From Streptomyces sp. SLBN-118 (GTDB lineage Bacteria; Actinomycetota; Actinomycetes; Streptomycetales; Streptomycetaceae): a DNA stretch of 64,000 nucleotides. A program made the position numbers and the translations under genes. Below the pieces are notes generated by a model, which worked only from the letters and a program-made list of their open reading frames with translations, was not told where the DNA came from and ran no database searches. Each line of letters opens with the position of its first letter. Position 1 is the stretch's first letter. Below are positions 42,502 through 60,781 of the stretch, in pieces. Location: positions 806,001 to 870,000 of the forward strand of contig NZ_VFNP01000002.1 of NCBI RefSeq assembly GCF_006715635.1, written 5' to 3'.

Positions 42502-43380
42502 TCAGGACCGTTTCCGACGGCGGACCGGCGCGAATCTGACGCCGAGGCCGGGGCCGGCCTGGGCAGCGGCCGACAGCCGGTTCTCTGGCACAACGCCGAT
42601 CACGGGATAGCCGCCGGTGGTGGGGCTGTCGGCAAGGAAGACCACGGGTTTGCCGTCGGGCGGTACCTGGATGGCTCCCAAAACCATGCCTTCGCTGGGC
42701 ATTTCACGGTGCACGGCACGCTCGAGAGTGGGCCCGTCCATCCGCAGCGCGATGCGGTTGCTCTGGGGAGAGACCGAGAAACGGGCTGATGCGAGGGTCT
42801 TCACGGCTGTGGCGGTGAACCAGTCGTCCCGTGGGCCGAGCAGTACGGGCAGGACCAGCTCCTGAGGAGGCGCTTGCCAGACCACTGTGTCGGCGTGGAG
42901 CGGTCGGCCGAGTTTCCCGCCCAGGGGCAGGATGTCCCCGTCCCTGAGAGGGGCCGGGCCGAGGCCGGAGAGCAGGTCGGTGGAGCGGCTGCCGAGGACA
43001 GGGGGGACCGCGACGCCTCCGCTGACGGCGACATAGCTGCGCACGCCGGTGGTGGGGACGCCGACATCGAGCACGGCGCCGGCGGGAAGGTGTATGGCCT
43101 CGGCCCAGGCCGCCGGCCGTCCGTCGACCCGCACCGGTGCGGGCGCCCCGGTCACGGCGACGATCACGGCCTGTGCGGCGCGCACGGCCGCTCCGGTCAG
43201 TGTGGTCTCCAGCGTTGCGGCCTCGGCGTGGTTGCCCACCAGCCGGTTCGCGAGTCGGTGAGCCGGCTGGTCCAGTGCCCCGGAGCGCGGTACGCCAAGG
43301 TAGGCGTGACCGAACCGGCCCAGGTCCTGCAGGGTGGTGAGCGCACCGGCCCGTACGACTTCCAGCTTGCCGCCGCTCAT
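42502..43380 (-). CDS. pxpC: 5-oxoprolinase subunit PxpC (biotin-dependent carboxyltransferase family)
   Basis: A 292-residue protein of the KipA/PxpC family (carboxyltransferase domain, subdomain A and B). The N-terminal LEVVRAGALTTLQDLGRFGH, the RLANRLVGN segment and the C-terminal FLADSPTTGGYPVIGVV are family hallmarks. With PxpA and PxpB it forms the ATP-dependent 5-oxoprolinase that opens 5-oxoproline to glutamate. It is last in the pxp operon, and its ATG overlaps the pxpB stop codon by 4 bases. The annotation 'biotin-dependent' is by homology; no biotin attachment site is present, as usual for the family. Confidence 0.92.
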   Translation of the reverse strand: MSGGKLEVVRAGALTTLQDLGRFGHAYLGVPRSGALDQPAHRLANRLVGNHAEAATLETTLTGAAVRAAQAVIVAVTGAPAPVRVDGRPAAWAEAIHLPAGAVLDVGVPTTGVRSYVAVSGGVAVPPVLGSRSTDLLSGLGPAPLRDGDILPLGGKLGRPLHADTVVWQAPPQELVLPVLLGPRDDWFTATAVKTLASARFSVSPQSNRIALRMDGPTLERAVHREMPSEGMVLGAIQVPPDGKPVVFLADSPTTGGYPVIGVVPENRLSAAAQAGPGLGVRFAPVRRRKRS

Positions 43381-44051
43381 GTGATGCGCCTTTCGGCCCT
43401 TGTGGGCTGTGCAGGTGTGTCAGGGCTCCCGCAAACGGGTTCTTCAGGGACGAACCGCACCCGAGCGCCGGGAGTCAGCAAAGCCTCGGGTTCGCGCTCC
43501 ATGTCCCACAGGCGCACATGGGTCGTACCGATCAGTTGCCAGCCGCCGGGCGAGGCACGCGGGTAAATGCCGGTGTAGGAACCCGCAACCGCAACGGAGC
43601 CGACGGGTACGGAAGTGCGTGGTGCAGCGTGGCGCGGCACGGCGTACGTCTCGCCGAGTCCGATCATGTACGCGAACCCCGGGGAGAACCCGCAGAAGGC
43701 CACACGGTGTTCGATACTGCTGTGGATCCGCGCCACCTCGTCTTCGGTGACACCCCACATCTCAGCCACCGCACGGAGATCGGCTCCGTTGTAATGCACC
43801 GGGATCTCCAACAGGGGCCCACTGTCGGCTGCCAGAGCGGGCACGGACCACCGGTGCAGCTCCGTCTGCAAGGCGTCTGCGTCGTGGACCCCGTAGAGAA
43901 GAACGGTTTTCTCACCGGGCACGATCTCGCGCACCGGCGAGAGCGTCCCGGCGATATGGCGGCTCAGGAGCTCGGCATGCCAGGCCTGTGCCTCTTCCGG
44001 CGTGTCCAGATCAACAAGGAGGGAATCGACTCCTACCGGCCTCAGCATCAT
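43377..44051 (-). CDS. pxpB: 5-oxoprolinase subunit PxpB (KipI family)
   Basis: A 224-residue KipI/PxpB protein. The motifs AFCGFSPGFAYMIGL, RTSVPVGSVAVAGSYTGIYP and SPGGWQLIG are those of the allophanate-hydrolase-C-like carboxyltransferase domain. It works with PxpA and PxpC in ATP-dependent cleavage of 5-oxoproline. Two adjacent ATG codons (44051, 44048) overlap the pxpA stop; a 4-base ATGA overlap couples translation to pxpA. An in-frame extension to 44858 is antisense-like noise and antiparallel to nothing real. Confidence 0.92.
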   Translation of the reverse strand: MMLRPVGVDSLLVDLDTPEEAQAWHAELLSRHIAGTLSPVREIVPGEKTVLLYGVHDADALQTELHRWSVPALAADSGPLLEIPVHYNGADLRAVAEMWGVTEDEVARIHSSIEHRVAFCGFSPGFAYMIGLGETYAVPRHAAPRTSVPVGSVAVAGSYTGIYPRASPGGWQLIGTTHVRLWDMEREPEALLTPGARVRFVPEEPVCGSPDTPAQPTRAERRIT

Positions 44052-44812
44052 GCGAACGCCTCCACCGTGACTCCGGCCGCCTCCAGAGCCGTACGCACCT
44101 GCTTGGCCAGCTCGACTGCCCCCGGAGTATCGCCATGCAGGCACAGAGAGCGCGCACGCATGGACACTGAGGCCCCGTCCAGCGAAGTGACGCGGCCGTC
44201 CAGCGCCATGGCAACGGCTCTGGCGGCGACCTGCTGGGGATCGGTGATCACCGCATCCGGCGTGGATCGCGGGACGAGCGCCCCGTCCGCCGTGTATGCA
44301 CGGTCGACGAACGCCTCGTCGACCACCTGGAGGCCGACCCGCTCGGCTTCCTCGTGCATGGCCGAATCGGGCAGGCACAGCACCTGAAGTGCCGGATCGG
44401 CGAGTCTGACGCCTGCTGCCACGGCAGCCGCCTGTGCCTGATCGAACACCACACGGTTGTACAGCGCTCCATGAGGCTTGACGTAGGTCACTTTCGTTCC
44501 GGCCGCCCGAGCGAACACCTGAAGGGAACCGATCTGGTACGTGATCTCGTCGGCGAGTTCGTCCGCAGGCACGTCCATGGCCCGTCGGCCGAAGCCGGCC
44601 AGGTCCCGGTAGGAAACCTGGGCGCCGATCCTCACACCGCGTTCGGCCGCCATGTCGCAGACGCGGCGCATGATGCTGGGATCTCCGGCGTGGAAGCCGC
44701 ACGCAACGTTGGCGCTGGTGACGACCGACAGCATGGCCTCGTCGTCGGTGAGGACCCACCGTCCGTAGCCTTCCGCGAGGTCTGCGTTGAGGTCGATCAC
44801 GATGCCTGTCAT
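44048..44812 (-). CDS. pxpA: 5-oxoprolinase subunit PxpA (LamB/YcsF family)
   Basis: A 254-residue LamB/YcsF-family protein with the polysaccharide-deacetylase-like fold. The signature motifs are IDLNADLAEGYGRW, SANVACGFHAGDP and TYVKPHGALYN. It provides the part of 5-oxoprolinase thought to bind and cleave the lactam with PxpBC. I chose ATG 44812 because AAGGAGA lies 9 bases upstream; the ATG at 44869 would overlap the DUF1445 gene and has a non-conserved extension. It is the second gene of the operon. Confidence 0.93.
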   Translation of the reverse strand: MTGIVIDLNADLAEGYGRWVLTDDEAMLSVVTSANVACGFHAGDPSIMRRVCDMAAERGVRIGAQVSYRDLAGFGRRAMDVPADELADEITYQIGSLQVFARAAGTKVTYVKPHGALYNRVVFDQAQAAAVAAGVRLADPALQVLCLPDSAMHEEAERVGLQVVDEAFVDRAYTADGALVPRSTPDAVITDPQQVAARAVAMALDGRVTSLDGASVSMRARSLCLHGDTPGAVELAKQVRTALEAAGVTVEAFA

Positions 44813-44865
44813 CGCTGGGTTGTCTCCTTGGAACAGTCCGATCGGCACGAGATACCACTGCGACA

Positions 44866-45657
44866 TCATGCGATGCGGTAATCCGTGTCTCGGCGGTCGG
44901 TGATCAGCATGTATCCGGGGGCGTGAGTGATGGCGAACGGGGGTCGTGAGGCCATCAGCGCGGCCTGCGGTGTGACGCCGCAGGCCCAGAACACCGGCAC
45001 ATCGCCCGGCTCCTCCTGCACCGGGTCGCCGAAGTCGGGGTGCGCAAGGTCCTCGATACCCAGGGCTGCCGGGTCGCCGGTGTGCACCGGGCCTCCGTGC
45101 ACCGCGGGCATGAGGGCGCTGACGCGGACCGCGGTGTCGACGAGGTCAGCCGGAATCTGCCGCATGGACACCACCATGGGGCCCTTGAGCCGGCCGGCCG
45201 GCCGGCAGTCACGATTTGTCTTGTACATCGCGACATTGCGTCCCTGGTCGACGTGGCGCAGGGGCACTCCTGCCTGGGCGAGCGCGGTCTCGAAGGAGAA
45301 GCTGCACCCGATGAGGAAGGTGACAAGGTCGTCACGCCAGGCATCAGTGGCGTCGGAGGGTTCGTCGATCAGTCGGCCGTTCTCCCAGACACGGTAGCGA
45401 GGGACGTCGGTGCGCAGGTCGGCGCCGGGAGCCAGCGGTGTCGACCAGTGTCCCGGGTCCGTGACATCGAGCACCGGACACGGCTTGGGGTTGCGCTGGC
45501 AGAACAGGAGAACGTCATAGGCCCAGTCGGCCGGGACAGCGACGAGATTGACCTGGGTGTACGCCGCGCACCATCCCGTGGTCGGCACACTTGCACCGTC
45601 GCGGAACATCGCCCGCGCGTCGGCGGGGGTGAGGGCCCCGGCATCCGCTGTCGTCAT
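44866..45657 (-). CDS. DUF1445 putative hydro-lyase (D-glutamate cyclase-like)
   Basis: A 263-residue protein of the DUF1445/YcsI family. The conserved stretches are [32 protein letters not shown] and [17 protein letters not shown]. Members are annotated as putative hydro-lyases; the mitochondrial DGLUCY protein with this domain turns D-glutamate into 5-oxo-D-proline, and bacterial ycsI genes travel with kip/pxp genes. It heads the pxp operon, 53 bases before the pxpA ATG. I chose ATG 45657 (GGGGAGAG upstream) over starts up to 45735. A promoter with a GntR-type palindrome lies just upstream. Confidence 0.88.
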
Positions 45658-45742
45658 CGCTCTCCCCATCGTCACCGGCAGCATCAAGGCCGCCTCGAGT
45701 ATCACCGCGCTGTGTGCAGCACGGCCGCTCATCATTCATTCA

Positions 45743-45772
45743 ATAGTAGAGGATCGTTGAACGATCCGACAG
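45743..45772 (-). promoter_or_regulatory. probable pxp operon promoter
   Basis: On the minus strand, CTGTCG (45772-45767) and TACTAT (45748-45743) are 18 bases apart. The 17-base GntR palindrome fills this spacer. Transcription would start near 45736, about 80 bases before the DUF1445 start codon. The -35 box is a weak match. Confidence 0.5.
45751..45767. promoter_or_regulatory. GntR-type operator, site 1
   Basis: GGATCGTTGAACGATCC is a perfect 17-base inverted repeat with a central G, between the pxp operon and the divergent gntR gene. An identical sequence is found 5.9 kb away upstream of the MFS gene. Confidence 0.85.
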
Positions 45773-45877
45773 TGCCTCTGTTGTTTCGTTCACGAGTTTC
45801 CTGTTCACTTGGATACAGAGAAACCGAGTGTGGAAGACCGTCGGACGCACCGTCGGCCGTGGGAAAGGGCAGAGACC

Positions 45878-46573
45878 ATGACAGCCGAGGTGGACCCGTC
45901 CGTGCTCGTTGGTGACCGTGCGCTTCTGGGGCGCTCCAGCACCGCCGACCGCGTCGCCGACATCTTGCGGGCACGCATTGCCGAGGGCTACCTCCCGCCT
46001 GGGAGCAAGCTCTCCGAAGACACCATCGGGGGCGCTCTGGGAGTTTCGCGCAACACGCTGCGAGAGGCGTTCCGACTCCTCACCCACGAGAGGCTGCTGG
46101 TCCACGAGCTCAACCGCGGCGTGTTCGTCCGCGTCCTCACCATGCAGGATGTCACCGACATCTACCGGGTCCGCAGACTCATCGAGTGTGCGGCGGTGCG
46201 TAATCTCGGGGCACCGCCCTACGACCTTGCCCAAGCTGAAGCCGCAGTCGCCGAAGGCGAGAAGGCGGCCGAGGAAGGCGCATGGCGTGAACTGGGCACC
46301 GCGAACATCCACTTCCACCATGCCGTGGTGGCCCTCACCCACAGCAAGCGCTTGGACGACCTCATGCGCGGTGTGCTGGCTGAACTGCGCTTGGTCTTCC
46401 ATGCCATGGACAATCCGCGCAGCTTCCACGAGCCGTACCTGGGGCGCAACCGGGAGATCCTCTCCGCCCTCAAGGCGGCAGACAGGGTGAGAGCCGAGCT
46501 GCTGCTGGCCGACTATCTTGACGGCGCGGAAAAGCAGCTGCTCGAGAAGTACTCCGAGTTCATGGCTCCGTGA
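45878..46573 (+). CDS. GntR-family regulator, FCD (FadR) subfamily
   Basis: A 231-residue regulator. The winged helix-turn-helix covers about residues 20-85 (IGGALGVSRNTLREAFRLLT, then RLLVHELNRGVFVRVLT). The FCD helical domain follows (IYRVRRLIECAAVRNL), with a possible metal site in the NIHFHHAVV stretch. FCD regulators usually bind carboxylic acids or amino-acid derivatives and repress the adjacent catabolic operon. ATG 45878 is used (GGGCAGAG upstream). Its own upstream region carries the 17-base palindrome, so it may repress itself, the pxp operon and further genes to 52.7 kb. Confidence 0.93.
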   Translation: MTAEVDPSVLVGDRALLGRSSTADRVADILRARIAEGYLPPGSKLSEDTIGGALGVSRNTLREAFRLLTHERLLVHELNRGVFVRVLTMQDVTDIYRVRRLIECAAVRNLGAPPYDLAQAEAAVAEGEKAAEEGAWRELGTANIHFHHAVVALTHSKRLDDLMRGVLAELRLVFHAMDNPRSFHEPYLGRNREILSALKAADRVRAELLLADYLDGAEKQLLEKYSEFMAP

Positions 46574-46609
46574 GGCCTGACGGAGACCAAGGACGCATGC
46601 TCCATGCCG

Positions 46610-47881
46610 TCATCCCTCGTCGGCCATGGGCCACCGCAGGCGTGCACGGGCCACGTCGAAGGGATAGACGAGGTGGTACCGGCCGTTGTGGACCTGCTCC
46701 ACGATGCCTCGGGCTCCGATGTTCTGGTGGTTGTCGTCGAACTTCACGCCGTCCCACGGCATGATCGTGTCGCGGCCCGGCACATCGATGTTCACCAGTG
46801 CTGAGCGGATATCGGCCGGTGTGGGGGATCCGGCCTCGTTGATCGCCTGTGCGAGCGTCATCACGGCTGTGAACGCACGGGCAGCGTCATCGTTCATGGG
46901 GGCGTCGTACGTTTCCCTGTAGAGGTACCCGACGGCCCTGGCCGTGGGGTTGCGCTCGGCCAGGTCGGAAGACCAGGCGAAGCGGCTGCAGACTCCCTCG
47001 GCGGCGCTCGGGTCCCTCCGGATGAATGCGGGATCTGCATGCCCGCCTCCGAAGGCTATGAGCGCCGGAGGCTGGTATCCGAGGCGGTCGAAGGCGTCCC
47101 TCAGCGCCAGCGCTTGGGATGTGTACAGGAAGGTCAGTACGACATCGGGGTCGGAGGCTGTCACCGCGTGCGCGTGGGAGGACAGATCGCTGGACCGGGC
47201 CCCGACTTTGATGTCCGCCACGACGTTGCCGTCGATGTGGGAGACAAGACGCTCGATCATGGCGGATCCGTCGTTGCCGTATTGATCGTCGGTGTGGAGC
47301 ACTGCGATGCGCTTGACCGACGTTCCCTCGCTCTGGCGTTCTTTCAGCAGGGAGAACACCACTCGGCCGTAGCTCAGGTCGGAGGGTCCGGTGCGGAAGA
47401 ACCAGTCAAGGCCGCGCTCGGTCAATGACGATGCGGAGGAACCTCCGTTCACGAACGGGATCCTCAGATCCTCGGAGCGTGCGCTGGCAGCTTCGGTGAC
47501 GGCTGATTCGTAGCCCCCGGCCATGGCGACCACGTGCTGGGTCCTGACCAGATGCGCCACCTGGGTCGCCCCGCGCGAAACGGAGCCACTGGTGTCGGCG
47601 GCTATGAGCCTGATCTTCGCGTTGTCCAAGCGAGGAAGACCCGCCCCCGGCCCCAGCGGCAGCGCCACCGAGGGATATTGGCCGTTGACAATCTGCACGG
47701 CCAGTTCGGCGCCTCGCTTGGTGTCGGTTCCCACTGAGGCGCCAGGACCCGACAGCGGCGCGAGGAAGCCGATATTCACGGGGGCGCGGGACGGCGGAAC
47801 AGCCGGCTCACCTGTGCAGGCGGAGGCCAGGAACAGGGCGGCGCTGAGAAGCACAGCGGTACCAATGACTGGTCTGGGCAT
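46610..47881 (-). CDS. ABC-type branched-chain amino-acid/amide binding lipoprotein
   Basis: A 423-residue periplasmic-binding-protein-fold protein (PBP type 1, Leu/Ile/Val or urea/amide type). The N-terminus MPRPVIGTAVLLSAALFLAS followed by AC is a lipoprotein signal, with Cys about residue 22. Motifs include NIGFLAPLSGPGASVG and the VAMAGGYESAVTEAASA ligand loop. No permease or ATPase genes adjoin, so it may feed a sensor rather than a transporter. Its ATG overlaps the stop codon of the histidine kinase gene by one base, which couples the two. It converges on gntR with 36 bases between. Confidence 0.9.
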   Translation of the reverse strand: MPRPVIGTAVLLSAALFLASACTGEPAVPPSRAPVNIGFLAPLSGPGASVGTDTKRGAELAVQIVNGQYPSVALPLGPGAGLPRLDNAKIRLIAADTSGSVSRGATQVAHLVRTQHVVAMAGGYESAVTEAASARSEDLRIPFVNGGSSASSLTERGLDWFFRTGPSDLSYGRVVFSLLKERQSEGTSVKRIAVLHTDDQYGNDGSAMIERLVSHIDGNVVADIKVGARSSDLSSHAHAVTASDPDVVLTFLYTSQALALRDAFDRLGYQPPALIAFGGGHADPAFIRRDPSAAEGVCSRFAWSSDLAERNPTARAVGYLYRETYDAPMNDDAARAFTAVMTLAQAINEAGSPTPADIRSALVNIDVPGRDTIMPWDGVKFDDNHQNIGARGIVEQVHNGRYHLVYPFDVARARLRWPMADEG

Positions 47882-50109
47882 CACGTTTGTCCTTCTACGG
47901 TCGGCAGATCGTCCAGCGTGTCGCTGCCGGTGTGAGGTACCGGGGGCGAGCCGGGCGATGGTCTGTCGCTGATGTGCATGCCATCGGTGTAGCGGCGGTG
48001 CGCCAGCCATTCCTGCGGCGAGCCGAAGATGGGTTCGACGCCGGTGGTCGGATATGAGCCGACGGCAGGAGCAGGCTGGTCCTCAGGTGGCGATGCGGAC
48101 ACAGGGGCCGAAGACGCCGTCCAGGCCGGGACAGGGTGGGTGGAGGGCTGGTCGGCCGATCCGGAGTCGCTCCACTCCTGCGCCACCGGGCCGTATGGGT
48201 GGAGGCCGGCCAGAAGGTTCCGGGGGATTCGTACCAGGGCCGTGCTGCCCCGTCGGGGGGTCGAAACAAGACGCACGTCGATGCCGTGTCTGGCTGCGAG
48301 GCGGCCTACGACAAACAGCCCCATGCTCTGCCCCGCATCGGGGTCGAGCGACAACGCCGAGGCCAGCCGCTGGTTCACCGTGGCCAGTTTCTCGGCTGTC
48401 ATTCCAGTGCCCTCGTCATCAATGGAGATCGTGAGGTCAGTGGGACGGTCGGAATCCGTCCGGCAGGTCACGGTGACGCGGGAGCGGGCGCTGGAAAAGA
48501 CCGTCGCATTTTCCATCAGCTCGGCCAACAGGTGCACCAGGTCGGTAACGGCGTCAGCCGCGATGTCGGCTCCTTGCGACGGACGAAAGTCGATGCGGGT
48601 GTACTGCTCCACCTCGGCACTGGCAGCCAGCACAATCTCCGACACCGGCATCGGCTGCTCCCATCCGCGACCCGTGTCGGAGCCGGCCAGCACCAGGAGG
48701 CTTTCGTCCGTGCGGAGCATCTGTGTGGCCAGGTGATCCAGACGGAAAAGGCGAGCCAGGTGGTTGGGGTTGTCCTCGTGCTGCTCCAAGTCGCTGATCT
48801 CGGAGAGGAGTTTGCTGACCAGATGCTGGTTGCGGCGGGAGAGGTGGATGAACATGCCGTTGATGTGCTTGCGGAGTGCGGCCTGGTCCCTCACGAGAGC
48901 GACGGCGGCACTCTGTACGGCATCGAATGCTTGGGCGACCTCGCCGATCTCGTCGTTGGCCGCGACTGCGGTCGGGGTGGCCCGGTAGTCGCGCAGGTCA
49001 TCAATGTCCGCCTGCCGAAGCCGTGTGAGTGCCTGCGGCAGGTGCTCGTTTGCGACCTTCAGCGCGGAGATGCGCAGGGTCTTCAGGGGCCGGGTCATGG
49101 ACCGTACGACGACGGTGACCACGGAGCCTGTCACCAGGAATACGGCGAGCAGCCCAGCCGCTCCCCACAGCGCTGCGCTCTGGCGGGAGCTGTGCACCTG
49201 GCCGCTGCGGGTGATGAGATCGGCGAGAATCCGTGATTCCACCTCGCGCATGAGCGCGATCCTGCGGCTGGAAACCTTGTTCCATGTCGCCGCGTCCGCT
49301 TCGACGCGCGGGGACTGTGCCTGCTCGCCGGCGCGTTCCTGGATGGCCTGGGTGGTGCTGACGGATGCGCCCTTGACGGTGTTGGCGTACAGGCTCTGCT
49401 GGGCTTCGCTGGCTGTGGCCATGAAATCGTCCACCGACTCCTGCTGGCGTGCGACCGCGCCGGCGAACTCCGGGAACTGGCCCACGAGAAAGGTACCGGT
49501 GGTCAGGACGCAGTTGAGGTCGGCTCGCACCCGGCTGGTGTTTTCCACTGCGGATGACAGGGAGTTGAGGGCCCGCACCTGACCGGCGGTCGTGTCGCCG
49601 CCGTTGTGCGCGGCCAGGACCGGCCCGAGACGCATGAGTTTGCCGATGGCGGCTGTGTAGTTGGCGAGGATCGAGCCCTGCGTCAGGTTGGCTTCATCCA
49701 CTGACCTGCGGAGCGCTGGGAGGCTTCCCAGTTCCTGCGTGACGGCGCTCAGGACCTCCTGCAGCTGGGGATCGTCGGAGGCGTCCATGTCATCGGCTGC
49801 CTGACGGTAGAGGGCAGCAGCGGCGTCGACTTCGGTGCGCTGGCGACGGGGGTTGCTGTTCGCGGCCTTGCGCCGGCCGGCGATAAATCCGGCTGTGGTG
49901 TCGCGTTCCTCCTGGAGCGCGTGGACCAGGGCCAAGGCCGGTTGCTGGAGGCGGGCGAGGACGGAGAACTGCCCGTAGTCCTCGGCGTCGGCGACAGTGC
50001 GGGAAAGGCTGACGACCGCCAGAACGCCGGCCAGGAGCCCGGGGATCAGCACGACGGCTGTCAGTTTGTTGCGTACGCGCCAGTTCTTCGGCTTGATGAG
50101 GTGGCGCAC
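47881..50109 (-). CDS. conservon-type sensor histidine kinase with NIT domain
   Basis: A membrane kinase of about 742 residues resembling CvnA proteins. A membrane helix (about 15-35) is followed by an external nitrate/nitrite-sensing-type helical domain (about 45-290), a second helix (about 305-330), HAMP, and a cytoplasmic part in which HLSRRNQHLVSKLLSEISDL and FRLDHLATQML stand in for the usual H-box. HATPase motifs are ELMENATVFSS, DEGTGM and GQSMGLFVVGRLA. The tail is long and Pro/Ser-rich. The start is uncertain: GTG 50109 is the only sensible one, with a poor ribosome site, and the frame extends upstream. The usual partners (roadblock, DUF742, GTPase) are missing here. Confidence 0.85.
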   Translation of the reverse strand: MRHLIKPKNWRVRNKLTAVVLIPGLLAGVLAVVSLSRTVADAEDYGQFSVLARLQQPALALVHALQEERDTTAGFIAGRRKAANSNPRRQRTEVDAAAALYRQAADDMDASDDPQLQEVLSAVTQELGSLPALRRSVDEANLTQGSILANYTAAIGKLMRLGPVLAAHNGGDTTAGQVRALNSLSSAVENTSRVRADLNCVLTTGTFLVGQFPEFAGAVARQQESVDDFMATASEAQQSLYANTVKGASVSTTQAIQERAGEQAQSPRVEADAATWNKVSSRRIALMREVESRILADLITRSGQVHSSRQSAALWGAAGLLAVFLVTGSVVTVVVRSMTRPLKTLRISALKVANEHLPQALTRLRQADIDDLRDYRATPTAVAANDEIGEVAQAFDAVQSAAVALVRDQAALRKHINGMFIHLSRRNQHLVSKLLSEISDLEQHEDNPNHLARLFRLDHLATQMLRTDESLLVLAGSDTGRGWEQPMPVSEIVLAASAEVEQYTRIDFRPSQGADIAADAVTDLVHLLAELMENATVFSSARSRVTVTCRTDSDRPTDLTISIDDEGTGMTAEKLATVNQRLASALSLDPDAGQSMGLFVVGRLAARHGIDVRLVSTPRRGSTALVRIPRNLLAGLHPYGPVAQEWSDSGSADQPSTHPVPAWTASSAPVSASPPEDQPAPAVGSYPTTGVEPIFGSPQEWLAHRRYTDGMHISDRPSPGSPPVPHTGSDTLDDLPTVEGQT

Positions 50110-50281
50110 GGCTTTGAGGTCCGTCCCGTACCGGTGCCTGGGTTTTGTTCTGGGGGCTCGGCCGACCTTCTCGCGCAAAGGATGGAACCTCTCATGATGT
50201 GGTGCCGACCGGCAGTGGTGAGGTGGCCGGCGGGTTTGTCGCCGGCCACCGTCACCAATGGTCAGTGGGTGTGGGACAGGT

Positions 50282-51553
50282 TCAGGTGAGTTCGGCGCCG
50301 CGGGTCTCCGGGAGGCCGAGAAGAGCGACGAGTGCGAGCCCGTAGCCGATGGCACCGTAGATCAGCGCACCGCCGACACCCGCCGACGAGAAGCCGACAG
50401 CCGTCGGGAAGATGGCGCCGAGCGCTCGTCCCACGTTGTAGGTGAAGCTCTGGCCGGTTCCGCGGACCGTGCTGGGGTAGAGCTCGGCCAGGTAGGAGCC
50501 GAAGCCGGAGAAGATGGCGGAGGCGCTGAAGCCGAGGGGGAAACCGAGGATCAGCAGAAGGGAGTTGGAGCCCTGTGGGATGTTGACGTACGAGATCAGA
50601 AGGCCGGCGCTCAGGAGCGCGAAGATGACGAAGGTGCCTTTGCGGCCCAGGCGGTCGACGAGCTGGCCGGCCGTGATGTAGCCGCAGAAGGCTCCGGTGA
50701 TGAGGACGAACAGGTAGCCGCCGGTGCCGACGACCGTCAGGCCGCGTTCGGTCTTGAGGTAGGTCGGCAGCCACGTGGCGAAGGTGTAGTACCCGCCCAT
50801 CACGCCGGTGGACAGCAGGGTCGCGCAGATGGTCCGGCGAGCCATGCCGCCCTTGAAGACGGAGGACAGCGGAGGGCGGGCTTCCTTCCTGGCCAGCCGC
50901 TCGGTCACCTCGGGTGCGTCCTCGACGTTGCGCCGCACGTACACCAGCAGCAGCGCGGGCAGGGCTCCTGTCCAGAACAGCACACGCCAGGCCAGGTCCG
51001 GATCGACGTTGTTCGTGAGGGTCGTGCCCACGACGACGGCCAGGGCCCAGCCGACCGCCCACGCGCTCTGGACCCAGGCCAGGACCCGGCCGCGGTAGAG
51101 CGGCTTGGCGTACTCGGCGACCAGGATGGCGCCGGCCGCCCACTCGCCACCGAAACCGACACCCTGAAGTGTCCGGAATCCCAGCAGCATCGGGTAGCTC
51201 GTGGCGAAGCCACACAGCACGGTGAACACGGCGTAGGTGCCCACCGTGACCATGAGGGTCTTGACCCTGCCGATTCTGTCGATCAGGAGACCGGCGACGA
51301 CTCCGCCGACTGCGGAGGACAACAGTGTGACGGTGGTCAGTAGCCCGGTCTGCGCCGTGGTCAGGCTGAAGTAGGCGGTGATGGCAACCATCGCCATCGG
51401 GAGCACGAGGAAGTCGTAGGAGTCGAGGGCGTACCCGCCGAATGCGCCCTTGAAGGCCCTGCGGCCCTGCGGGGACATCGACCGGAACCAGGCGAAGGGG
51501 CCGGTCACCTCGCTCTCGACTGTGGTCGGGGGGCTGGTGGGGATGGATGTCAC
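50282..51553 (-). CDS. MFS transporter 1 (SHS/NanT-like)
   Basis: A 423-residue, 12-helix MFS protein. The opening GPFAWFRSMSPQGRRAFKGA, then GGYALDSYDFLVLPM, and the RIGRVKTLM loop resemble the sialate/lactate:proton (SHS) and NanT branch, which imports organic acids. It is very similar over its whole length to MFS 2 at 56019. GTG 51553 fits GTGAGG about 6 bases upstream. An excellent promoter with a perfect GntR palindrome in its spacer lies about 130 bases upstream. The kinase gene begins about 170 bases after its stop codon. Confidence 0.92.
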   Translation of the reverse strand: MTSIPTSPPTTVESEVTGPFAWFRSMSPQGRRAFKGAFGGYALDSYDFLVLPMAMVAITAYFSLTTAQTGLLTTVTLLSSAVGGVVAGLLIDRIGRVKTLMVTVGTYAVFTVLCGFATSYPMLLGFRTLQGVGFGGEWAAGAILVAEYAKPLYRGRVLAWVQSAWAVGWALAVVVGTTLTNNVDPDLAWRVLFWTGALPALLLVYVRRNVEDAPEVTERLARKEARPPLSSVFKGGMARRTICATLLSTGVMGGYYTFATWLPTYLKTERGLTVVGTGGYLFVLITGAFCGYITAGQLVDRLGRKGTFVIFALLSAGLLISYVNIPQGSNSLLLILGFPLGFSASAIFSGFGSYLAELYPSTVRGTGQSFTYNVGRALGAIFPTAVGFSSAGVGGALIYGAIGYGLALVALLGLPETRGAELT

Positions 51554-51674
51554 GGTGACCTCACGGAGATGGAGAGGGACGGGAGTCAAAGCCCTCATCA
51601 GCGGTGGGCTGTCATCCGTACTGCCGCCTTCGAGATTCGGACGACGCGCATGCCCTGCGGCTTGACGTGGGTAC

Positions 51675-51703
51675 AAGCTAGGGATCGTTGAACGATCCTT
51701 CAA
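51675..51703 (-). promoter_or_regulatory. promoter of MFS 1
   Basis: On the minus strand, TTGAAG (51703-51698) and TAGCTT (51680-51675) are 17 bases apart. The spacer is almost exactly the GntR palindrome, with one operator base shared with the -35 box; a bound repressor would mask both boxes. The predicted start is near 51668, leaving a leader of about 115 bases. Confidence 0.7.
51682..51698. promoter_or_regulatory. GntR-type operator, site 2
   Basis: GGATCGTTGAACGATCC is identical to the site between the pxp operon and gntR. It occupies the spacer of the MFS 1 promoter. Confidence 0.85.
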
Positions 51704-51721
51704 GAGGGGATGAAGCTTTTT

Positions 51722-52255
51722 CTACAACTCAGTTTCATCACGACGCGCCTCGGCCGGCCGTGGAGCCGGTAGCGCCGCAGAGTCGGCAAGACCGCCATCA
51801 ATCGGCAGCGCGGCCCACACCGCATGGCCGTGCGGCAGGTTCCAGGTGCCCCAGCCCGAGGACAGGGCCTCGACCAGGTACAGCCCTCGCCCACTGCACG
51901 GGATGTCGTCGTCGGACTGCGGGGGAGACAGAGCACCGCTCCACCCTCGGCCGTAGTCGCCGACCTCGAGGCGGATCACGGCCCCGGTGGCCATGTGGAT
52001 GCGCCGCACCGTGTGCCAGATCGGATCACGGTCCGAGCCGTGGCAGATCGCATTGGTGACGAGTTCAGAAACGATCAGCTCTGCATCCTCGACCAGATGC
52101 CGCAGATCCCACGCCTGCAGCAGGTCGCCGACTTGCCGGCGGGCGGATTGAGCAGATTCAGCCACCGCAGGCAGGACCCAGGTCACGGAGACCCGTTGCC
52201 CGGTCTCGGTATCCGAGTGAACCGACGGCACCTGAGTGGAGGTGAAGGGAGGCAT
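51722..52255 (-). CDS. RsbW-like ATP-binding protein
   Basis: A 177-residue single GHKL ATPase domain. The N-box is ELIVSELVTNAICHGS (about residues 58-73) and the lid DIPCSGRGLYLVEALSSGWG. It has the size and pattern of the many Streptomyces anti-sigma-factor-like proteins. ATG 52255 has GAGGA 5 bases upstream. A GntR-type palindrome lies about 180 bases upstream of it, so it may belong to the same regulon. No sigma-factor gene is adjacent. Confidence 0.83.
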   Translation of the reverse strand: MPPFTSTQVPSVHSDTETGQRVSVTWVLPAVAESAQSARRQVGDLLQAWDLRHLVEDAELIVSELVTNAICHGSDRDPIWHTVRRIHMATGAVIRLEVGDYGRGWSGALSPPQSDDDIPCSGRGLYLVEALSSGWGTWNLPHGHAVWAALPIDGGLADSAALPAPRPAEARRDETEL

Positions 52256-52437
52256 TGCGTCCTCACTGGGGGATGCGCGGCCATGTTGCCGGAACTACGC
52301 CGCGCGGTGGTCCGCCTGCGAGAGGGCTCGAAGCGGCTGGATGATGGCTGAGGCTGTGGCATTGGCCGGAAACGCGACACCGGGAGGGAAGCCGATCCAG
52401 ATCCCGCGAGTGCAGACCTCCGCCTTACCGATGCGTA

Positions 52438-52454
52438 GGATTGTTCTACAATCC
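52438..52454. promoter_or_regulatory. GntR-type operator, site 3
   Basis: GGATTGTTCTACAATCC has perfect 7-base arms (GGATTGT/ACAATCC). It matches sites 1 and 2 at all but four symmetric positions. It may act on the RsbW-like gene or serve as a second, looping site for the carboxylase promoter. Confidence 0.75.
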
Positions 52455-52580
52455 CCTTTCTGGATTACTGGATTATCATGCGATCCGGCCCATGTCAACC
52501 GTCACCCAGCCGCCCTCATCCGGCGCGAGGCGCGGACGACGCACCTCGGCCGCGCTCCGCAGCGAGAAGGCGATGCTCTA

Positions 52581-52609
52581 TTGAAGAATCGTTCTACAAT
52601 CCCTAAGGT
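52581..52609 (+). promoter_or_regulatory. promoter of the carboxylase genes
   Basis: TTGAAG (52581-52586) and TAAGGT (52604-52609) are 17 bases apart. The -35 sequence is identical to that of the MFS 1 promoter, and the spacer again holds a GntR palindrome. The leader would be about 93 bases. Confidence 0.65.
52586..52602. promoter_or_regulatory. GntR-type operator, site 4
   Basis: GAATCGTTCTACAATCC matches the GGATYGTTSWACRATCC consensus with one mismatch (A at position 2). It fills the -35/-10 spacer of the carboxylase promoter. Confidence 0.7.
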
Positions 52610-52708
52610 GACATCGCGGTCGTCTTGGTCTCGTTGAACGGCCGCCCGCGGTGCGAGGACCTGCCCCCTCGCACCGCGGACACTCCCCCGGACACGGAGA
52701 CCCACGCG

Positions 52709-54298
52709 ATGGCCACATCCCAGAGCAGCATCCTCACCGCTCGAAGGCATGCCGAGAATCTGCATCACCCGATCGAGCAAGCCGTGCACACCTTGGAAGC
52801 GCAACACGCCCAAGCCGAGGTGGCCCAGGTGACCGCCCGTGCACGCGTGGAGCAACTGCTCGACCAGGACTCCCTGGTGGAACTGGACGCGGCCGCAGGG
52901 CACCGCCTGAACCATGCAGAGCTGGATGGCGAACGACCGTATGGAGACGGCGTGGTCACCGGCTACGGCACCGTCGACGGCCGCCCCGTGGCTGTCTTCG
53001 CACAGGACTCCACCGTTTTCGGCGAGGCCATGGGTGAGGCGGTCTGCAGGAAGATCGCAAAGGTGATGGACTTTGCCCTGAAGACCGGCTGTCCAGTTAT
53101 CGGCATCAGCGACTCCCGACGGGCCGGCGTCCAGGCCGGGGGCAGCGCCCTGGGCACGAGCGGCGAGACGTTCCGCCGCCACGTGCATGCTTCCGGAGTC
53201 GTCCCCCAGATCTCACTCGTTCTGGGATCGTGCGACGGCCCTGCGGTCTTCTCCCCCGCTCTGACCGACTTCACCGTGATTGCCGAGCGCACCTCGCACA
53301 TGCTCACCAGCGGGCCCGAAGTGATCAGGACCGTGACCGGCGAAGACATCGACATCGAGGAATTGGGCGGAGCTCGCACGCACAGCACCGTCTCCGGTGT
53401 CGCTCACTGCTTGGCGGGTGATGCAAAGGAGGCCATGGAATACGTCAGGGCACTGCTGTCCCACCTGCCTTCGAACAACCTCCAGGAACCTCCGGCCCAC
53501 CCGGACCAGGCCGACCTGGAGACCTGCGCCGAAGACCTGGAGCTGGACACGGTCGTACCAGATTCCACCAACCAGCCCTACGACATGCACCACGTCATCG
53601 AGCACGTCATCGACGACTACGAATTCCTTGAGACACAGCCTCTGTTCGCGCCGAACCTCATCACCGGCTTCTGCCGCATCGAGGGACACCCTGTGGGCAT
53701 CGTCGCCAACCAGCCGTTGCAGTTGGCCGGCTGCCTGGACATCGACGCCTGCGAAAAGGCCGCCCGGTTCGTTCGGACCTGCGACGCCTTCAACGTCCCG
53801 GTGGTGACCTTCGTGGATGTACCCGGCTTCGTGCCGGCCACTGACCAGGAACACCAAGGCATCATCCGCCGCGGCGCCAAACTGATCTACGCCTATGCCG
53901 AGGCCACCGTCCCGCTCATCACCGTCATTACCCGGAAGGCTTTCGCCGGCGCCTATGACCTCATGGGTTCCAAGCACCTCGGCGCCGACCTCAACCTGGC
54001 CTGGCCCACCGCACAGATCGCGGTGATGGGTCCCCAGAGCGCCGTCGGCATCCTCCACGGCGTGTCGCAGACGGGGGCTGACCTCCAAGGCCCAGTCCAC
54101 CGGGAGGAGAAGCGCGCCGAGCTGATGAGCGAGTACGGGGACGCTCTCCTCACTCCCTTCATCGCTGCCGAGCGCGGTTACATCGACGCGGTGGTCAAAC
54201 CCTCTGAGACGCGGCAGCACGTCATCCGCGGCCTGCGGGCGCTGCGCACCAAGCGAGAGACACTGCCCCCGAAGAAGCACGGCAACATACCGCTCTAG
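52709..54298 (+). CDS. acyl-CoA carboxylase beta (carboxyltransferase) subunit
   Basis: A 529-residue carboxyltransferase of the PccB/AccD type, which moves carboxyl from carboxybiotin to an acyl-CoA. Both crotonase-like halves are present: GVVTGYGTVDGRPVAVFAQD and SRRAGVQAGGSALGT in the first, and FCRIEGHPVGIVANQPL, VDVPGFVPATDQEHQGIIRRG and KAFAGAYDLMGSKHLGAD in the second. ATG 52709 has GGAG 9 bases upstream. The residues that set acyl-chain preference cannot be judged here, so acetyl-, propionyl- or another acyl-CoA is possible. A small epsilon subunit follows; no alpha (biotin) subunit is in the window and must come from elsewhere. Confidence 0.93.
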   Translation: MATSQSSILTARRHAENLHHPIEQAVHTLEAQHAQAEVAQVTARARVEQLLDQDSLVELDAAAGHRLNHAELDGERPYGDGVVTGYGTVDGRPVAVFAQDSTVFGEAMGEAVCRKIAKVMDFALKTGCPVIGISDSRRAGVQAGGSALGTSGETFRRHVHASGVVPQISLVLGSCDGPAVFSPALTDFTVIAERTSHMLTSGPEVIRTVTGEDIDIEELGGARTHSTVSGVAHCLAGDAKEAMEYVRALLSHLPSNNLQEPPAHPDQADLETCAEDLELDTVVPDSTNQPYDMHHVIEHVIDDYEFLETQPLFAPNLITGFCRIEGHPVGIVANQPLQLAGCLDIDACEKAARFVRTCDAFNVPVVTFVDVPGFVPATDQEHQGIIRRGAKLIYAYAEATVPLITVITRKAFAGAYDLMGSKHLGADLNLAWPTAQIAVMGPQSAVGILHGVSQTGADLQGPVHREEKRAELMSEYGDALLTPFIAAERGYIDAVVKPSETRQHVIRGLRALRTKRETLPPKKHGNIPL

Positions 54299-54318: not shown

Positions 54319-54546
54319 GTGGCTGACACGGACTTCCCCATCCAGGAGCACACGATCCCTCCCATCAAGGTGCTGTACGGGCAGCCCACTCCCGAAGAAC
54401 TGGCCGCTGTGGTCCTCGTGGTCCACACCCGTGCCACCACCACGGCAGCAGACCCCGAACCACCTCGCAGGCCCCCGGTCTCCGCGTGGACCGACCGTGG
54501 CACGGCCATCGCGCTCCGCCGTCTGCCTGTCCCCCGACCCGCGTAG
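54319..54546 (+). CDS. acyl-CoA carboxylase epsilon subunit
   Basis: A 75-residue protein. The IKVLYGQPTPEELAAVVLVV core followed by a disordered Pro/Thr-rich stretch and a basic tail (SAWTDRGTAIALRR) matches the epsilon subunits (AccE/PccE) that stabilise actinomycete carboxylases. The GTG start is 20 bases after the beta-subunit stop codon, so the two are co-transcribed. Its presence argues that the beta subunit works in a real AccA-B-E complex. Confidence 0.85.
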   Translation: MADTDFPIQEHTIPPIKVLYGQPTPEELAAVVLVVHTRATTTAADPEPPRRPPVSAWTDRGTAIALRRLPVPRPA

Positions 54547-56018: not shown

Positions 56019-57293
56019 TCAGGTGAATTCGGTGCCCCGGGTCTCGGGCAGGCCGAGGAGGGCGACGAGGGCGACGGCGTATCCCACGACGCCGTAGACG
56101 AGGGCGTTGCCGACGCCGGCGCTGCCTGCGGTGAAGCCCACTGCGGTGGGGAAAAATGCTCCGATACCGCGGCCGAGGTTGTAGGTGAGGCTCTGACCGG
56201 TGCCACGGACCGCGCTGGGGTAGAGCTCGGCCAGGAAGGAGCCGAAGCCGGAGAAGATGGCGGAGGCGCAGAACCCCAGGGGGAAGCCGAGGACCAGCAG
56301 AAGGCTGTTGGCGCCGTCGGGGATGTTGATGTAGGCCAACAGCAGGCTCCCGCTCATGACCGCGAACAGGGCGAAGGACTTCTTTCGTCCCAGGAGGTCG
56401 ATGACGTACCCGGCGGTCACGTAGCCGCAGAAGGCGCCTGTGATGAGCACGAACAGGTAGCCGCCCGTACCGACAACGGTCAGACCTCGCTCGGTCTTGA
56501 GGTACGTGGGCAGCCACGTCGCAATGGTGTAGTAGCCGCCCTGGGCTCCGGTCGCCAGCAGCGTCGCGAAAAACGTCCTGCGCGCCAGGGTGCCCCGGAA
56601 GACCGATGTCAGCGGGACACGCTCGCCCTTCTCGGCGAGCCGGTTGATCACCTCGGGGGCGTCCTGGACGTTGCGGCGCACGTAGAACAGCAGCGCTGCC
56701 GGCAGAGCACCGGTCCAGAACATCACCCGCCAGGCGATGTCGGGCGCAAGATTGTCCATCACCACCGTGCTCACGATGACCGCCAGTCCCCAGCCGATGG
56801 CCCAGGAGCTCTGGATGAAGGCCAGGGTCCGGCCGCGGTAACGGCTCCTGGCGTACTCGGCGACCAGGACGGCGCCTGCCGCCCACTCACCGCCGAAGCC
56901 AAGGCCCTGAAGAGCGCGGCTCGCCAGCAGCATCGGATAGGTCACGGCAAAACCGCACAGCACGGTGAACAGGGCGTAGGTACCCACGGTGATCATGAGG
57001 GTCCTGACCCGGCCGACCCGGTCGATCAGCCCCCCGGCGAGGATCCCGCCGAGCGCGGACATCACCAGTGTGACGGTGGTCAGAAGCCCTGCTTCCGCCT
57101 TGGTGAGGTGGAAGTAGGCCGTGATGGCGACCATGCTCAGCGGCAGCACCTGGAAATCGTAGGAATCAAGTGCGAATCCGCCGAATGCGCCCTTGAAGGC
57201 CCGGCGCCCCTGCGGGGTGAACGACCGGTACCAGGAGAACGGACCAGTAACCTCCTCACCGACTGTCCGGGGGCCGGTTGGAGTAGATGCCAC
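56019..57293 (-). CDS. MFS transporter 2 (paralogue of MFS 1)
   Basis: A 424-residue, 12-helix MFS protein nearly collinear with MFS 1, sharing long identical stretches such as GTGGYLFVLITGAFCGY and ASAIFSGFGS. The opening GPFSWYRSFTPQGRRAFKGA is the same variant. GTG 57293 follows GAGG, like MFS 1. No copy of the GntR palindrome is visible in its 185-base upstream region, so the two paralogues are probably controlled differently. The frame stays open far upstream (to 58682), but that part is antisense to permease coding sequence. Confidence 0.92.
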   Translation of the reverse strand: MASTPTGPRTVGEEVTGPFSWYRSFTPQGRRAFKGAFGGFALDSYDFQVLPLSMVAITAYFHLTKAEAGLLTTVTLVMSALGGILAGGLIDRVGRVRTLMITVGTYALFTVLCGFAVTYPMLLASRALQGLGFGGEWAAGAVLVAEYARSRYRGRTLAFIQSSWAIGWGLAVIVSTVVMDNLAPDIAWRVMFWTGALPAALLFYVRRNVQDAPEVINRLAEKGERVPLTSVFRGTLARRTFFATLLATGAQGGYYTIATWLPTYLKTERGLTVVGTGGYLFVLITGAFCGYVTAGYVIDLLGRKKSFALFAVMSGSLLLAYINIPDGANSLLLVLGFPLGFCASAIFSGFGSFLAELYPSAVRGTGQSLTYNLGRGIGAFFPTAVGFTAGSAGVGNALVYGVVGYAVALVALLGLPETRGTEFT

Positions 57294-57478
57294 GGTGCAC
57301 CTCACAACGCAGATTGAGGAGGGCGTCAGCGAACTCTCCGAGCCGCCGGCGCGGACCTTGCCGGTGCATCCCGGGCTTCCACCCTCCACGAGAACCACCG
57401 TAGATCGCATCTCCTCCGGCACCCGGAGCGTCGCACCGGCGGGCCGTCGGTCTGACGAATTCCGCCTACCGCGCAGTG

Positions 57479-59428: not shown

Positions 59429-60781
59429 TCAGCCCTCGGCGGCGAAGATGGTCTTCTTCTGCCTCTCGATACTGTTGACCAACCCGTCAACATCCTTTGG
59501 CTTGTTGATGAAGGTCTGGATGGCCGGAATCATCACCGTCGACGAGAAGTCGGGCCTCGTGTCGCGGTCCAGGAACTGCGAGATCTGCTTGGCGCCCGAG
59601 ACGAGTTCGACGGCCTTCTTCTGCAGCGGCGAGTACTTCGAGGTGTCGGCCCGGTCGCTCACCGCGATGTTGTTGGGGTCACTGGCGAGGTAGATGTCCT
59701 CCGCCTTGCCACTGGCCAGCCACGTGAGCAGGTCCTTGGCGCTCTGCATGCTCTTGCTGTTCTTGAGTTCCTTCGCCTTCTTCGCCAGCAGGAAGCCGTC
59801 GATGGGCGCCTCGACCGCGTCCTGGCCGTGCTCCGGATTGATCTCCGGGAAGGGAAAGAAGTCGATGTCGGCCTGCTCGCCCTTGGGGAACTGGGCGCCG
59901 GGGTGCGGCAGTCCGAAGACGGCCATGCCCGCTTCCTTCTTCTGCAGGCTGGTCGCGGCCTCCTGCCAGGTACGGCCGTTCGCTCCGGGCTGGCAGTACG
60001 GAAGGAGGCTGCGCCAGGTGTCGAAGACGTCCTTGACGCGCTTGTCGGTCCACGCCTCCTTGCCCGCCATCAGGTTCTTGTGGAACTCGTATCCGTTGGT
60101 ACGCATGTTGATGTAGTCGAAGGTGCCCATCGCGGGCCAGCCGTCCTTGTCGCAGAACGCGATGGGGACGAGCTTGTCCTTCTGCATCTGCCTGGCGAGG
60201 GCTATGTACTCGTCGAGGGTCTTGGGGGCCTGGTAGCCGTGCTGCTCGAAGACGCTCTTCCGGTGGAAGACGGCCCAGGGGTAGTAGTAGTACGGCGTCA
60301 GGTACTGCTTGCCGTCCTCACCTGTCGACTGCGCCTTCAGCGCGGGCGAGAAGCCCTGGTAGCCCGCCCAGTTGTCGCTGATGTCGTGCAGCAGGCCCTT
60401 CTTGGCGAAGAACTGCATGCGGTAGCCCGCGAACCACATGAACACGGAGTCCGGCTTGCCCTGCAGATAGCGGTTGATGTTCTCCTGGAAGGTGTTGTGG
60501 TCAACGGTGTTGACCTTTACCTTCCGCCCTTCCTTCGACTGCTCCGCGTACGCGGCGAAGGCGTCGGCGAACGCCTTCTTCGGCACCGGGTCGGACGAGT
60601 TGGACCCCATGGTGATGGTCTTGCCGTCCCCGCCGGGGCCACTGCCGCAGGCGGCGAGCAACGAGGGCAGCGTGATGGCTCCCGCACCCGCTGCCGCACC
60701 ACGCAGCAGATTCCGCCGGGACATCCGATGTCCTGCCACGCTCCCGAGCGCTGCAGGACCGTTGAACGATGACTGCGCCAT
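59429..60781 (-). CDS. ABC sugar-binding lipoprotein, Tat-type signal
   Basis: A 450-residue solute-binding protein of the MalE-like type (PBP type 2). The N-terminus has a twin-arginine-like motif (SRRNLLRG, about residues 21-28) and a lipobox (SLLAACGSG; Cys near residue 45), suggesting Tat export and lipid anchoring. GGAGGAGGGG is a very strong ribosome site before ATG 60781. It heads the carbohydrate operon. The ligand is unknown. Codons 4-9 contain a sequence partly like the GntR palindrome, which I consider coincidental. Confidence 0.93.
   Translation of the reverse strand: MAQSSFNGPAALGSVAGHRMSRRNLLRGAAAGAGAITLPSLLAACGSGPGGDGKTITMGSNSSDPVPKKAFADAFAAYAEQSKEGRKVKVNTVDHNTFQENINRYLQGKPDSVFMWFAGYRMQFFAKKGLLHDISDNWAGYQGFSPALKAQSTGEDGKQYLTPYYYYPWAVFHRKSVFEQHGYQAPKTLDEYIALARQMQKDKLVPIAFCDKDGWPAMGTFDYINMRTNGYEFHKNLMAGKEAWTDKRVKDVFDTWRSLLPYCQPGANGRTWQEAATSLQKKEAGMAVFGLPHPGAQFPKGEQADIDFFPFPEINPEHGQDAVEAPIDGFLLAKKAKELKNSKSMQSAKDLLTWLASGKAEDIYLASDPNNIAVSDRADTSKYSPLQKKAVELVSGAKQISQFLDRDTRPDFSSTVMIPAIQTFINKPKDVDGLVNSIERQKKTIFAAEG

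Follow-up and report, generated by a model that had tools for sequence, protein, structure and literature searches.

PxpR of Corynebacterium glutamicum is a GntR-type repressor encoded divergently from the operon pxpTABC (PMC13274462). According to the available excerpts of that report, the system is induced by 5-oxoproline, which PxpR binds with a dissociation constant (KD) of 726 nM by isothermal titration calorimetry (ITC), and no binding of glutamate, glutamine, proline or aspartate was seen under the conditions tested. The operator, agattgttcaacaatct, which was first put forward as a motif by RegPrecise, is supported there by mutation and deletion. The stretch described here comprises 64,000 nucleotides of Streptomyces sp. 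SLBN-118 (contig NZ_VFNP01000002.1, positions 806,001 to 870,000; hereafter the window) and contains a gene for a GntR regulator with an FCD domain, located at 45878–46573 on the plus strand, and four copies or close variants of a 17-bp palindrome. A literature search with the core of this palindrome led to the C. glutamicum system.

The locus is in all likelihood an enlarged PxpR regulon, in which the GntR protein binds the palindrome and represses four promoters until it is released by 5-oxoproline; this reading is drawn from sequence comparison. Regulators of the GntR family are usually dimers, and the GntR/FCD protein would bind the palindrome in this form. The repressed units would be the pxp operon (D-glutamate cyclase, pxpA, pxpB and pxpC), the gene of the transporter MFS1 together with, presumably, those of a kinase and a binding protein, the gene of an RsbW-like ATPase, and the genes of a PccB-like carboxyltransferase and its epsilon subunit. 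5-Oxoproline, either external or formed by cyclization of glutamate or glutamine, would release the repressor and turn on uptake by MFS1, hydrolysis to glutamate by PxpABC and the accessory genes, among which the ATPase and the carboxyltransferase may be of some benefit to the cell.

Probable operator sites in the window and in the genome

The palindrome GGATCGTTGAACGATCC is found at 45751–45767 and again, identical, at 51682–51698, and the related forms GGATTGTTCTACAATCC and GAATCGTTCTACAATCC occupy 52438–52454 and 52586–52602, respectively. All four sites named in a preliminary description of the sequence are present letter for letter, and the statement made there that their recurrence is not due to chance is borne out: seven strand-hits with at most three mismatches to the 45751 palindrome occur in the window, as against 0.15 expected from dinucleotide shuffles, and none of 100 shuffles reached seven. 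The genome-wide consensus search that had been proposed as a check recovers GGATYGTTNWACRATCC without mismatch in the 7.79-Mb genome (G000, two contigs) at three places, all of them the window sites that conform to the pattern. When two mismatches are tolerated there are five places, namely the four window sites and G000:C2:1730438. Four of the five matches lie within 7 kb, and the reversed control pattern has no match in the whole genome at up to two mismatches. At the fifth place (locus L005, two mismatches) the -35 slot lacks TTG on both strands.

A chance origin or a dispersed repeat is hardly conceivable as the source of these sites. Some of the motif matches in relatives (for example G183 and G068) do lie in called open reading frames (ORFs) without promoter boxes, but the idea of a dispersed repeat is rejected because the reversed control motif is absent from all 392 Streptomyces genomes sampled and the promoter boxes stand in register with the operators; the clustering of the genomic matches argues in the same direction. 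Unlinked matches without promoter boxes, such as those in G183, G068, G217, G013, G263 and G086, look non-functional.

Two loci, L109 (3899–4077, genome G217) and L130 (4001–4110, genome G013), contain clusters of three to four operator-like palindromes in about 180 bp, which are devoid of promoter boxes and are placed away from the gntR match. In the window, a version of the operator with three mismatches, GGACCGTTGAACGATGA, is found at 60756–60772 within an open frame (59429–60781, minus strand) that resembles an ABC binding protein by eye; considered as a fifth window operator, it was treated as probably a chance match in view of its position inside this frame.

Promoter architecture

Three of the four operators are embedded in promoters. 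In the MFS1 promoter (51675–51703, minus strand) the -35 box TTGAAG (51703–51698) and the -10 box TAGCTT (51680–51675) are separated by 17 bases, which are filled by the operator at 51682–51698, and the carboxyltransferase promoter (52581–52609, plus strand) has the same design, with TTGAAG at 52581–52586, the operator at 52586–52602 and, after the 17-base spacer, TAAGGT at 52604–52609. Both box pairs had been given in the preliminary description, which credited only the MFS1 operator with a base shared with the -35 box; the first G of the operator is the final -35 base at both promoters. The pxp promoter (45743–45772, minus strand) holds the third such operator (45751–45767) in the position proposed earlier, between a -35 slot at 45772–45767 and a -10 box, TACTAT, at 45748–45743, and its -35 sequence is poorer than had been counted. 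The site at 52438 departs from the spacer placement that had been assumed for the operators in general, as in the promoter of the RsbW-like gene (52438–52498, minus strand) it lies downstream of the -10 box of TTGACA-17-TAATCC (-35 at 52498–52493, -10 at 52475–52470).

Since the operator fills the space between the -35 and -10 boxes at the pxp, MFS1 and carboxyltransferase promoters, binding of the repressor and of RNA polymerase would be mutually exclusive there. At the RsbW-like gene the operator would lie across the transcription start or behind it, and would block it. Across seven loci this promoter has the -35 box TTGACA (TTGACG in two of the seven) and a weak -10 box 16–18 bases away, and the operator starts about 7 bases past the -10 box in most loci and 15 bases past it in the window; a layout similar to that of the window is found in L006, L007, L008, L012, L136 and L138. 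An operator site is located 111 bp ahead of gntR itself, where a convincing gntR promoter, as would be expected for autoregulation, was not recognized.

The composite design recurs in relatives. At all 31 distinct sites in 30 motif-centred loci a TTG on one strand occupies the -35 slot overlapping the first base of the operator, and at 30 of them it is followed 16–18 bases on by TAnnnT, as for example in TTGAAGGATCGTTCAACGATCCTCTACCTT, whereas the fraction of random window positions that pass the same tests is 0.011 for TTG and 0.00005 for both boxes. These 31 sites come from related genomes and are therefore not independent. In gntR-centred loci TTG is present at 26 of 29 sites and both boxes at 24 of 29.

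Conservation of the probable regulon

The arrangement of the window is shared by ten other loci (L006, L007, L008, L009, L010, L011, L012, L136, L138 and L139), a set from which L013, with the common arrangement, and the genomes G129, G174, G218, G366 and G646 were excluded. With up to two mismatches allowed, a site is present between gntR and pxp and another at the transporter gene in 11 of 11 loci, and upstream of the carboxyltransferase gene in all nine loci having this gene. The RsbW-like gene has its own site in seven of the eight loci that possess it, the exception being L139, and the gene, which the preliminary description had included with a “maybe”, is accordingly counted as a member of the regulon. 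The boxes are conserved together with the sites: the transporter sites have a TTGA -35 box and TAnnnT at 17 bases in all 11 loci, the carboxyltransferase sites have TTGA and TAnnnT at 17 or 18 bases in nine of nine, and the pxp sites have TTGT in nine of 11 and TAnnnT at 18 bases in all 11. In the ten loci other than the window the pxp -35 box is TTGTCG in eight, TTGTGG in one and CTACCG in one. The presence of the same composite promoters at corresponding genes in ten other genomes speaks for the single repressor acting on four promoters that had been postulated from the window.

Other arrangements are found as well. In G129 and G174 a site with two mismatches is retained at gntR and pxp and the MFS gene is located elsewhere with its own one-mismatch site, which in G129 lies 62 bp upstream of the gene. 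G366 has sites ahead of its MFS and pxpA genes and a gntR match that contains a stop, and G646 has an NRAMP gene. In further Streptomyces loci gntR is divergent from an MFS gene, a D-glutamate cyclase gene and the pxp genes (e.g. L115 and L124) or directly divergent from pxpA (e.g. L116, L177 and L178).

The regulator and its probable signal

The FCD-type GntR gene at 45878 had been chosen as the best candidate for the binding protein, a choice that the co-occurrence of regulator and motif supports. In the 392 genomes, with GntR called at E 1e-40 or better and only the exact motif counted, the regulator is present in 289 and the motif in 231; every one of the 231 motif-bearing genomes has GntR, and none of the 103 genomes without GntR has the motif. 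When pxpA (354 of 392 genomes) is held constant, in order to separate the presence of the regulator from that of the pathway, the motif is found in 230 of 288 genomes with GntR and in none of 66 without it (Fisher 2.4e-37, kinship ignored). The gntR-centred loci are the best matches, the window among them, and 29 of these 30 have a site with at most two mismatches. One genome, G136, contains GntR and the exact motif and shows no LamB/YcsF match at 1e-30.

It is very improbable that the palindromes are the operators of a second regulator and that GntR is a mere passenger of the pxp locus. Co-occurrence is not binding, and the same palindrome is also found away from pxp, beside ORFs without a Pfam match (L103, L111, L112, L114, L122 and L131), but this idea is rejected mainly because the motif is missing from all 66 pxpA genomes that lack GntR; the invariable presence of GntR in motif-bearing genomes also stands against it, as does the near-identical site of the corresponding C. 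glutamicum system, as given in the excerpts of PMC13274462.

The palindromes in the six loci just named, near position 4001, belong to a recurrent element like AACCATCCTATTGAAGGATCGTTGAACAATCCATACATTGG, with TTGAAG ahead of the palindrome and, in L111, L112 and L122, TACATT behind it. The element occurs in five other genomes (G183, G370, G373, G024 and G095) and, where tested, adjoins ORFs without a Pfam match; it is possibly a further target family or the site of another regulator.

The window protein contains the GntR (PF00392, E 3.5e-15) and FCD (PF07729, E 2.4e-18) domains, and its closest solved structure is PDB 2hs5. In an alignment of 64 GntR proteins of several families, 2hs5 included, conservation of the winged-helix segments SRNT, REAF and RGV is 95% or higher. 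As in the part of the C. glutamicum report consulted (PMC13274462), the regulator gene is divergent from a 5-oxoprolinase operon, which in the window consists of the D-glutamate cyclase gene, pxpA, pxpB and pxpC (45735–42502, minus strand). The operator agattgttcaacaatct fits the same 17-bp palindrome frame and agrees with the 52438 site at 14 of 17 positions and with the 45751 site, in the better orientation, at 13 of 17, and several relatives have GGATTGTTCAACAATCC or its reverse complement, which is identical to agattgttcaacaatct at 15 of 17 positions. Outside the genus, relatives of the window GntR are 43–61% identical to it. In a set of 30 class-level loci, one of them from the same genus, pxp genes are found in the fetched stretch of 22 and a related palindrome in 19, and six permuted palindromic control patterns give no match in these loci. 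The regulator is thus assigned to the PxpR type and is very probably a sensor of 5-oxoproline.

A rather unlikely alternative is that GntR binds these sites and that this clade uses a different organic acid as the signal, such as D-glutamate or an acyl-CoA connected with the carboxyltransferase. The presence in the gene set of a homolog of D-glutamate cyclase, with D-glutamate as its expected substrate, and of a PccB-like protein speaks for this alternative, whereas the linkage of pxp genes to gntR in 22 of the 30 class-level loci points to 5-oxoproline, as does the ligand specificity recorded for C. glutamicum PxpR in the excerpts of PMC13274462, where 5-oxoproline was bound and glutamate, glutamine, proline and aspartate, as tested, were not.

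Several observations weigh against an enlarged PxpR regulon as outlined above. The exact motif is missing from 58 of the 289 GntR-bearing genomes, and the co-occurrence, in which kinship is ignored, indicates association rather than binding. The likeness to the C. glutamicum regulator (Cg1143) is drawn from its GntR type, gene order and operator. Of the 30 class-level loci, eight lack pxp genes within the stretch that was fetched and 11 lack a palindrome, and in a few the palindromes lie 0.6–2 kb away from gntR. In G129, G174, G218, G366 and G646 a close GntR is present and most of the extra genes are missing near gntR, and in L139 the carboxyltransferase gene lies 2.1 kb from its site. The pxp promoter of the window, CTGTCG-18-TACTAT, has a poor -35 box. 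The C. glutamicum operator is placed downstream of the -10 box, according to the excerpts of PMC13274462, whereas three of the window operators are in spacers. In class-level loci TTG is found at 16 of 18 sites and both boxes at only seven of 18, and in view of these counts and of those for the 31 sites within the genus the placement of the operator in the spacer is a real feature, conserved in Streptomyces and less clear outside it.

The pxp genes, the transporter slot and the sensor pair

The first gene of the pxp operon encodes a D-glutamate cyclase or putative hydro-lyase (44866–45735, minus strand; PF07286, E 1.1e-67; NF003969, 412.8 bits, above the cut-off). As residue 30 is the first to be covered by NF003969, translation probably starts at a point downstream of 45735. 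It is followed on the same strand by pxpA (44048–44869; PF03746, E 6.9e-99; NF003814, above the cut-off), pxpB (43377–44057, with the start chosen in this analysis; PF02682, E 2.6e-53; TIGR00370, 134.9 bits, below the cut-off of 145.55) and pxpC (42502–43380; PF02626, E 8e-89; TIGR00724 above and NF045499 below the cut-off), which code for subunits A, B and C of 5-oxoprolinase. PxpA and the cyclase thus pass a curated model, and PxpB and PxpC fall under their NCBIfam equivalog cut-offs. The window pxpA is the only LamB/YcsF match in genome G000. In L008 (9404–9610) and L012 (9510–9775), which retain the site, gntR and pxpABC, only fragments of a D-glutamate cyclase are matched.

MFS1 (50282–51553, minus strand; PF07690, E 6.8e-52, for the longer ORF 50282–51703) belongs to a family different from that of the NRAMP-type PxpT described in the excerpts of PMC13274462. 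A promoter of the type found at the window MFS1 gene stands in L007 before a gene of the NRAMP family (PF01566, E 6.3e-96), and the NRAMP gene of L175 starts 66 bp past an operator site. In the three class-level loci checked (L142, L154 and L168) the gene located between gntR and pxpA is likewise NRAMP-like, the type to which PxpT of C. glutamicum belongs. The two groups of NRAMP proteins are only distantly similar, as a search of the loci from other genera with the L007 protein gave no match at 1e-20. MFS1 is proposed as a candidate 5-oxoproline importer mainly because an MFS protein appears to displace NRAMP in this slot. Beyond a P450 gene there is another MFS gene (56022–57296), which is related to MFS1 and is not preceded in the window by an operator at up to two mismatches; in L009 operator sites stand before an MFS2-type gene, unlike in the window.

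Downstream of the MFS1 gene on the same strand are the genes of a histidine-kinase-like sensor with NIT and HAMP domains (47881–50145; PF08376, E 8.5e-46, PF02518 and PF00672) and of a binding protein of the branched-chain-amino-acid type (46610–47884; PF13458, E 1.1e-47), whose nearest PDB sequence is 8wch (E 1.5e-72) and which is lipoprotein-like by eye. The two genes overlap by 4 bases and would share the MFS1 transcript. The kinase gene of L007 has its own composite PxpR-type site (17702).

The carboxyltransferase and the RsbW-like ATPase

The carboxyltransferase beta subunit (52709–54298, plus strand) contains the Carboxyl_trans domain (PF01039, E 6.6e-162), which covers residues 68–555 of the longer ORF starting at 52625. 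Its best match is PccB (PDB 1xnv, E 3.4e-240, over residues 11–529), which we take to be the enzyme of S. coelicolor. The gene of the acyl-CoA carboxylase epsilon subunit (54319–54546, plus strand, GTG start; PF13822, E 8.3e-13) follows, and an epsilon-like reading frame stands behind the carboxyltransferase in all nine loci, the eight others having been compared by eye. The protein shares with PccB the Carboxyl_trans fold, the C-domain motif GAYD-MGSKHLGAD and the neighboring epsilon gene. The N-domain motifs differ: NDSGGARIQEG of PccB is replaced by SDSRRAGVQAG, and GPCAGGAVYSPA by GSCDGPAVFSPA, which places a proline at position 183 (PccB numbering). Gly182 and Gly183 presumably form the oxyanion hole of PccB, and Asp422, which is retained here with the C-domain motif, presumably affects its choice of substrate.

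The first N-domain motif is intact in none of the nine carboxyltransferases (the window protein and eight homologs), and Gly182 or Gly183 is altered in eight of them, with L138 retaining both glycines, whereas both motifs are intact in six PccB proteins (L183–L188). One of these, L188, is a separate PccB of the same genome with 68% identity to the window protein. The homologs in L010, L011, L012 and L136 lack about 30–40 residues near the C-terminus. By these sequence features the carboxyltransferase looks catalytically altered.

The RsbW/SpoIIAB-like ATPase-domain protein (51722–52255, minus strand; PF13581, HATPase_c_2, E 3.1e-12, above the cut-off) is encoded between the MFS1 and carboxyltransferase genes, the two neighbors considered with regard to an adjoining sigma factor or anti-anti-sigma partner of an RsbW/SpoIIAB anti-sigma kinase. 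Both it and the carboxyltransferase are among the fastest-evolving products of the cluster, with identities in four comparisons of 0.56–0.67 and 0.61–0.75, respectively, as against 0.81–0.89 for gntR. Another possibility is that function is confined to the pxp and transporter sites and that the other two are by-products of local duplication beside decaying genes. The rapid divergence and the alteration of the N-domain motifs would agree with this, yet it is unlikely: the two genes have kept their sites and boxes, no stop interrupts the matched parts of the nine carboxyltransferases, the epsilon-like frame is always present, and the ratio of non-synonymous to synonymous substitution rates (dN/dS) is 0.27–0.42 for the carboxyltransferase and 0.29–0.58 for the ATPase. 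Since the corresponding range for PccB is 0.11–0.15, the carboxyltransferase gene is constrained but relaxed.

There is a small chance that the enlarged PxpR regulon wires 5-oxoproline (pyroglutamate) to acyl-CoA metabolism. A pseudo-carboxyltransferase induced through PxpR might join, or compete in, a real propionyl- or acetyl-CoA carboxylase and so tune the supply of malonyl- or methylmalonyl-CoA, and a network of sigma factors or partner switching might receive the same signal through the RsbW-like ATPase. If this were true, a PccB-derived beta subunit would have lost the catalytic motifs of the acyl-CoA side and kept the C-domain and its epsilon partner.

Comparison with known systems

The regulon interpretation of the preliminary description finds support in comparison with other genomes; that description made no mention of PxpR and 5-oxoproline, of the sensor pair or of the altered carboxyltransferase. 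A motif spotted by eye has become a testable regulon with a likely signal, and its regulator is encoded in most of the sampled Streptomyces genomes (289 of 392). In the open-licence PMC literature searched, the C. glutamicum paper is the only one found on the regulator, and Streptomyces may already be covered by earlier predictions, such as those of RegPrecise. No description of the larger regulon, of operators placed in spacers, of the transporter displacement or of the changed carboxyltransferase was found in the portions of that literature available.

The window regulator shares the FCD domain with the FadR subfamily of GntR proteins, for which TKGT/ACMA operator boxes are given in the excerpts of PMC4494728. 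The core of the window operator, TYGT N3 ACRA, permits C where that consensus has G or T, and the flanking GGA/TCC is conserved as part of the operator. Another FCD-type GntR regulator from Streptomyces is HypR of S. coelicolor, a multi-target repressor of the catabolism of an amino acid derivative; in the part of the report consulted (PMC6608401), its motif, CTNTGC(A/C)ATGTCAC, and its substrate, L-hydroxyproline, are different.

PxpR control of the pxp genes is already known in C. glutamicum, where the excerpts of PMC13274462 describe one operon, as compared with four promoters in the window. The window adds to that system a D-glutamate cyclase, an ATPase, a PccB-like beta/epsilon pair with altered N-domain motifs in the carboxyltransferase, and a linked pair of binding protein and NIT kinase, and it has an MFS protein in the transporter slot, nominated through the displacement of NRAMP at the same kind of promoter as a new kind of 5-oxoproline transporter. 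The design is compact, with the operator serving as the promoter spacer and being reused at three promoters, and a layout behind the -10 box at the fourth. The locus also brings to light a co-regulated and apparently altered carboxyltransferase. Related bacteria share the arrangement, by which the repressor known from Corynebacterium would come to govern more genes, and more unusual ones.

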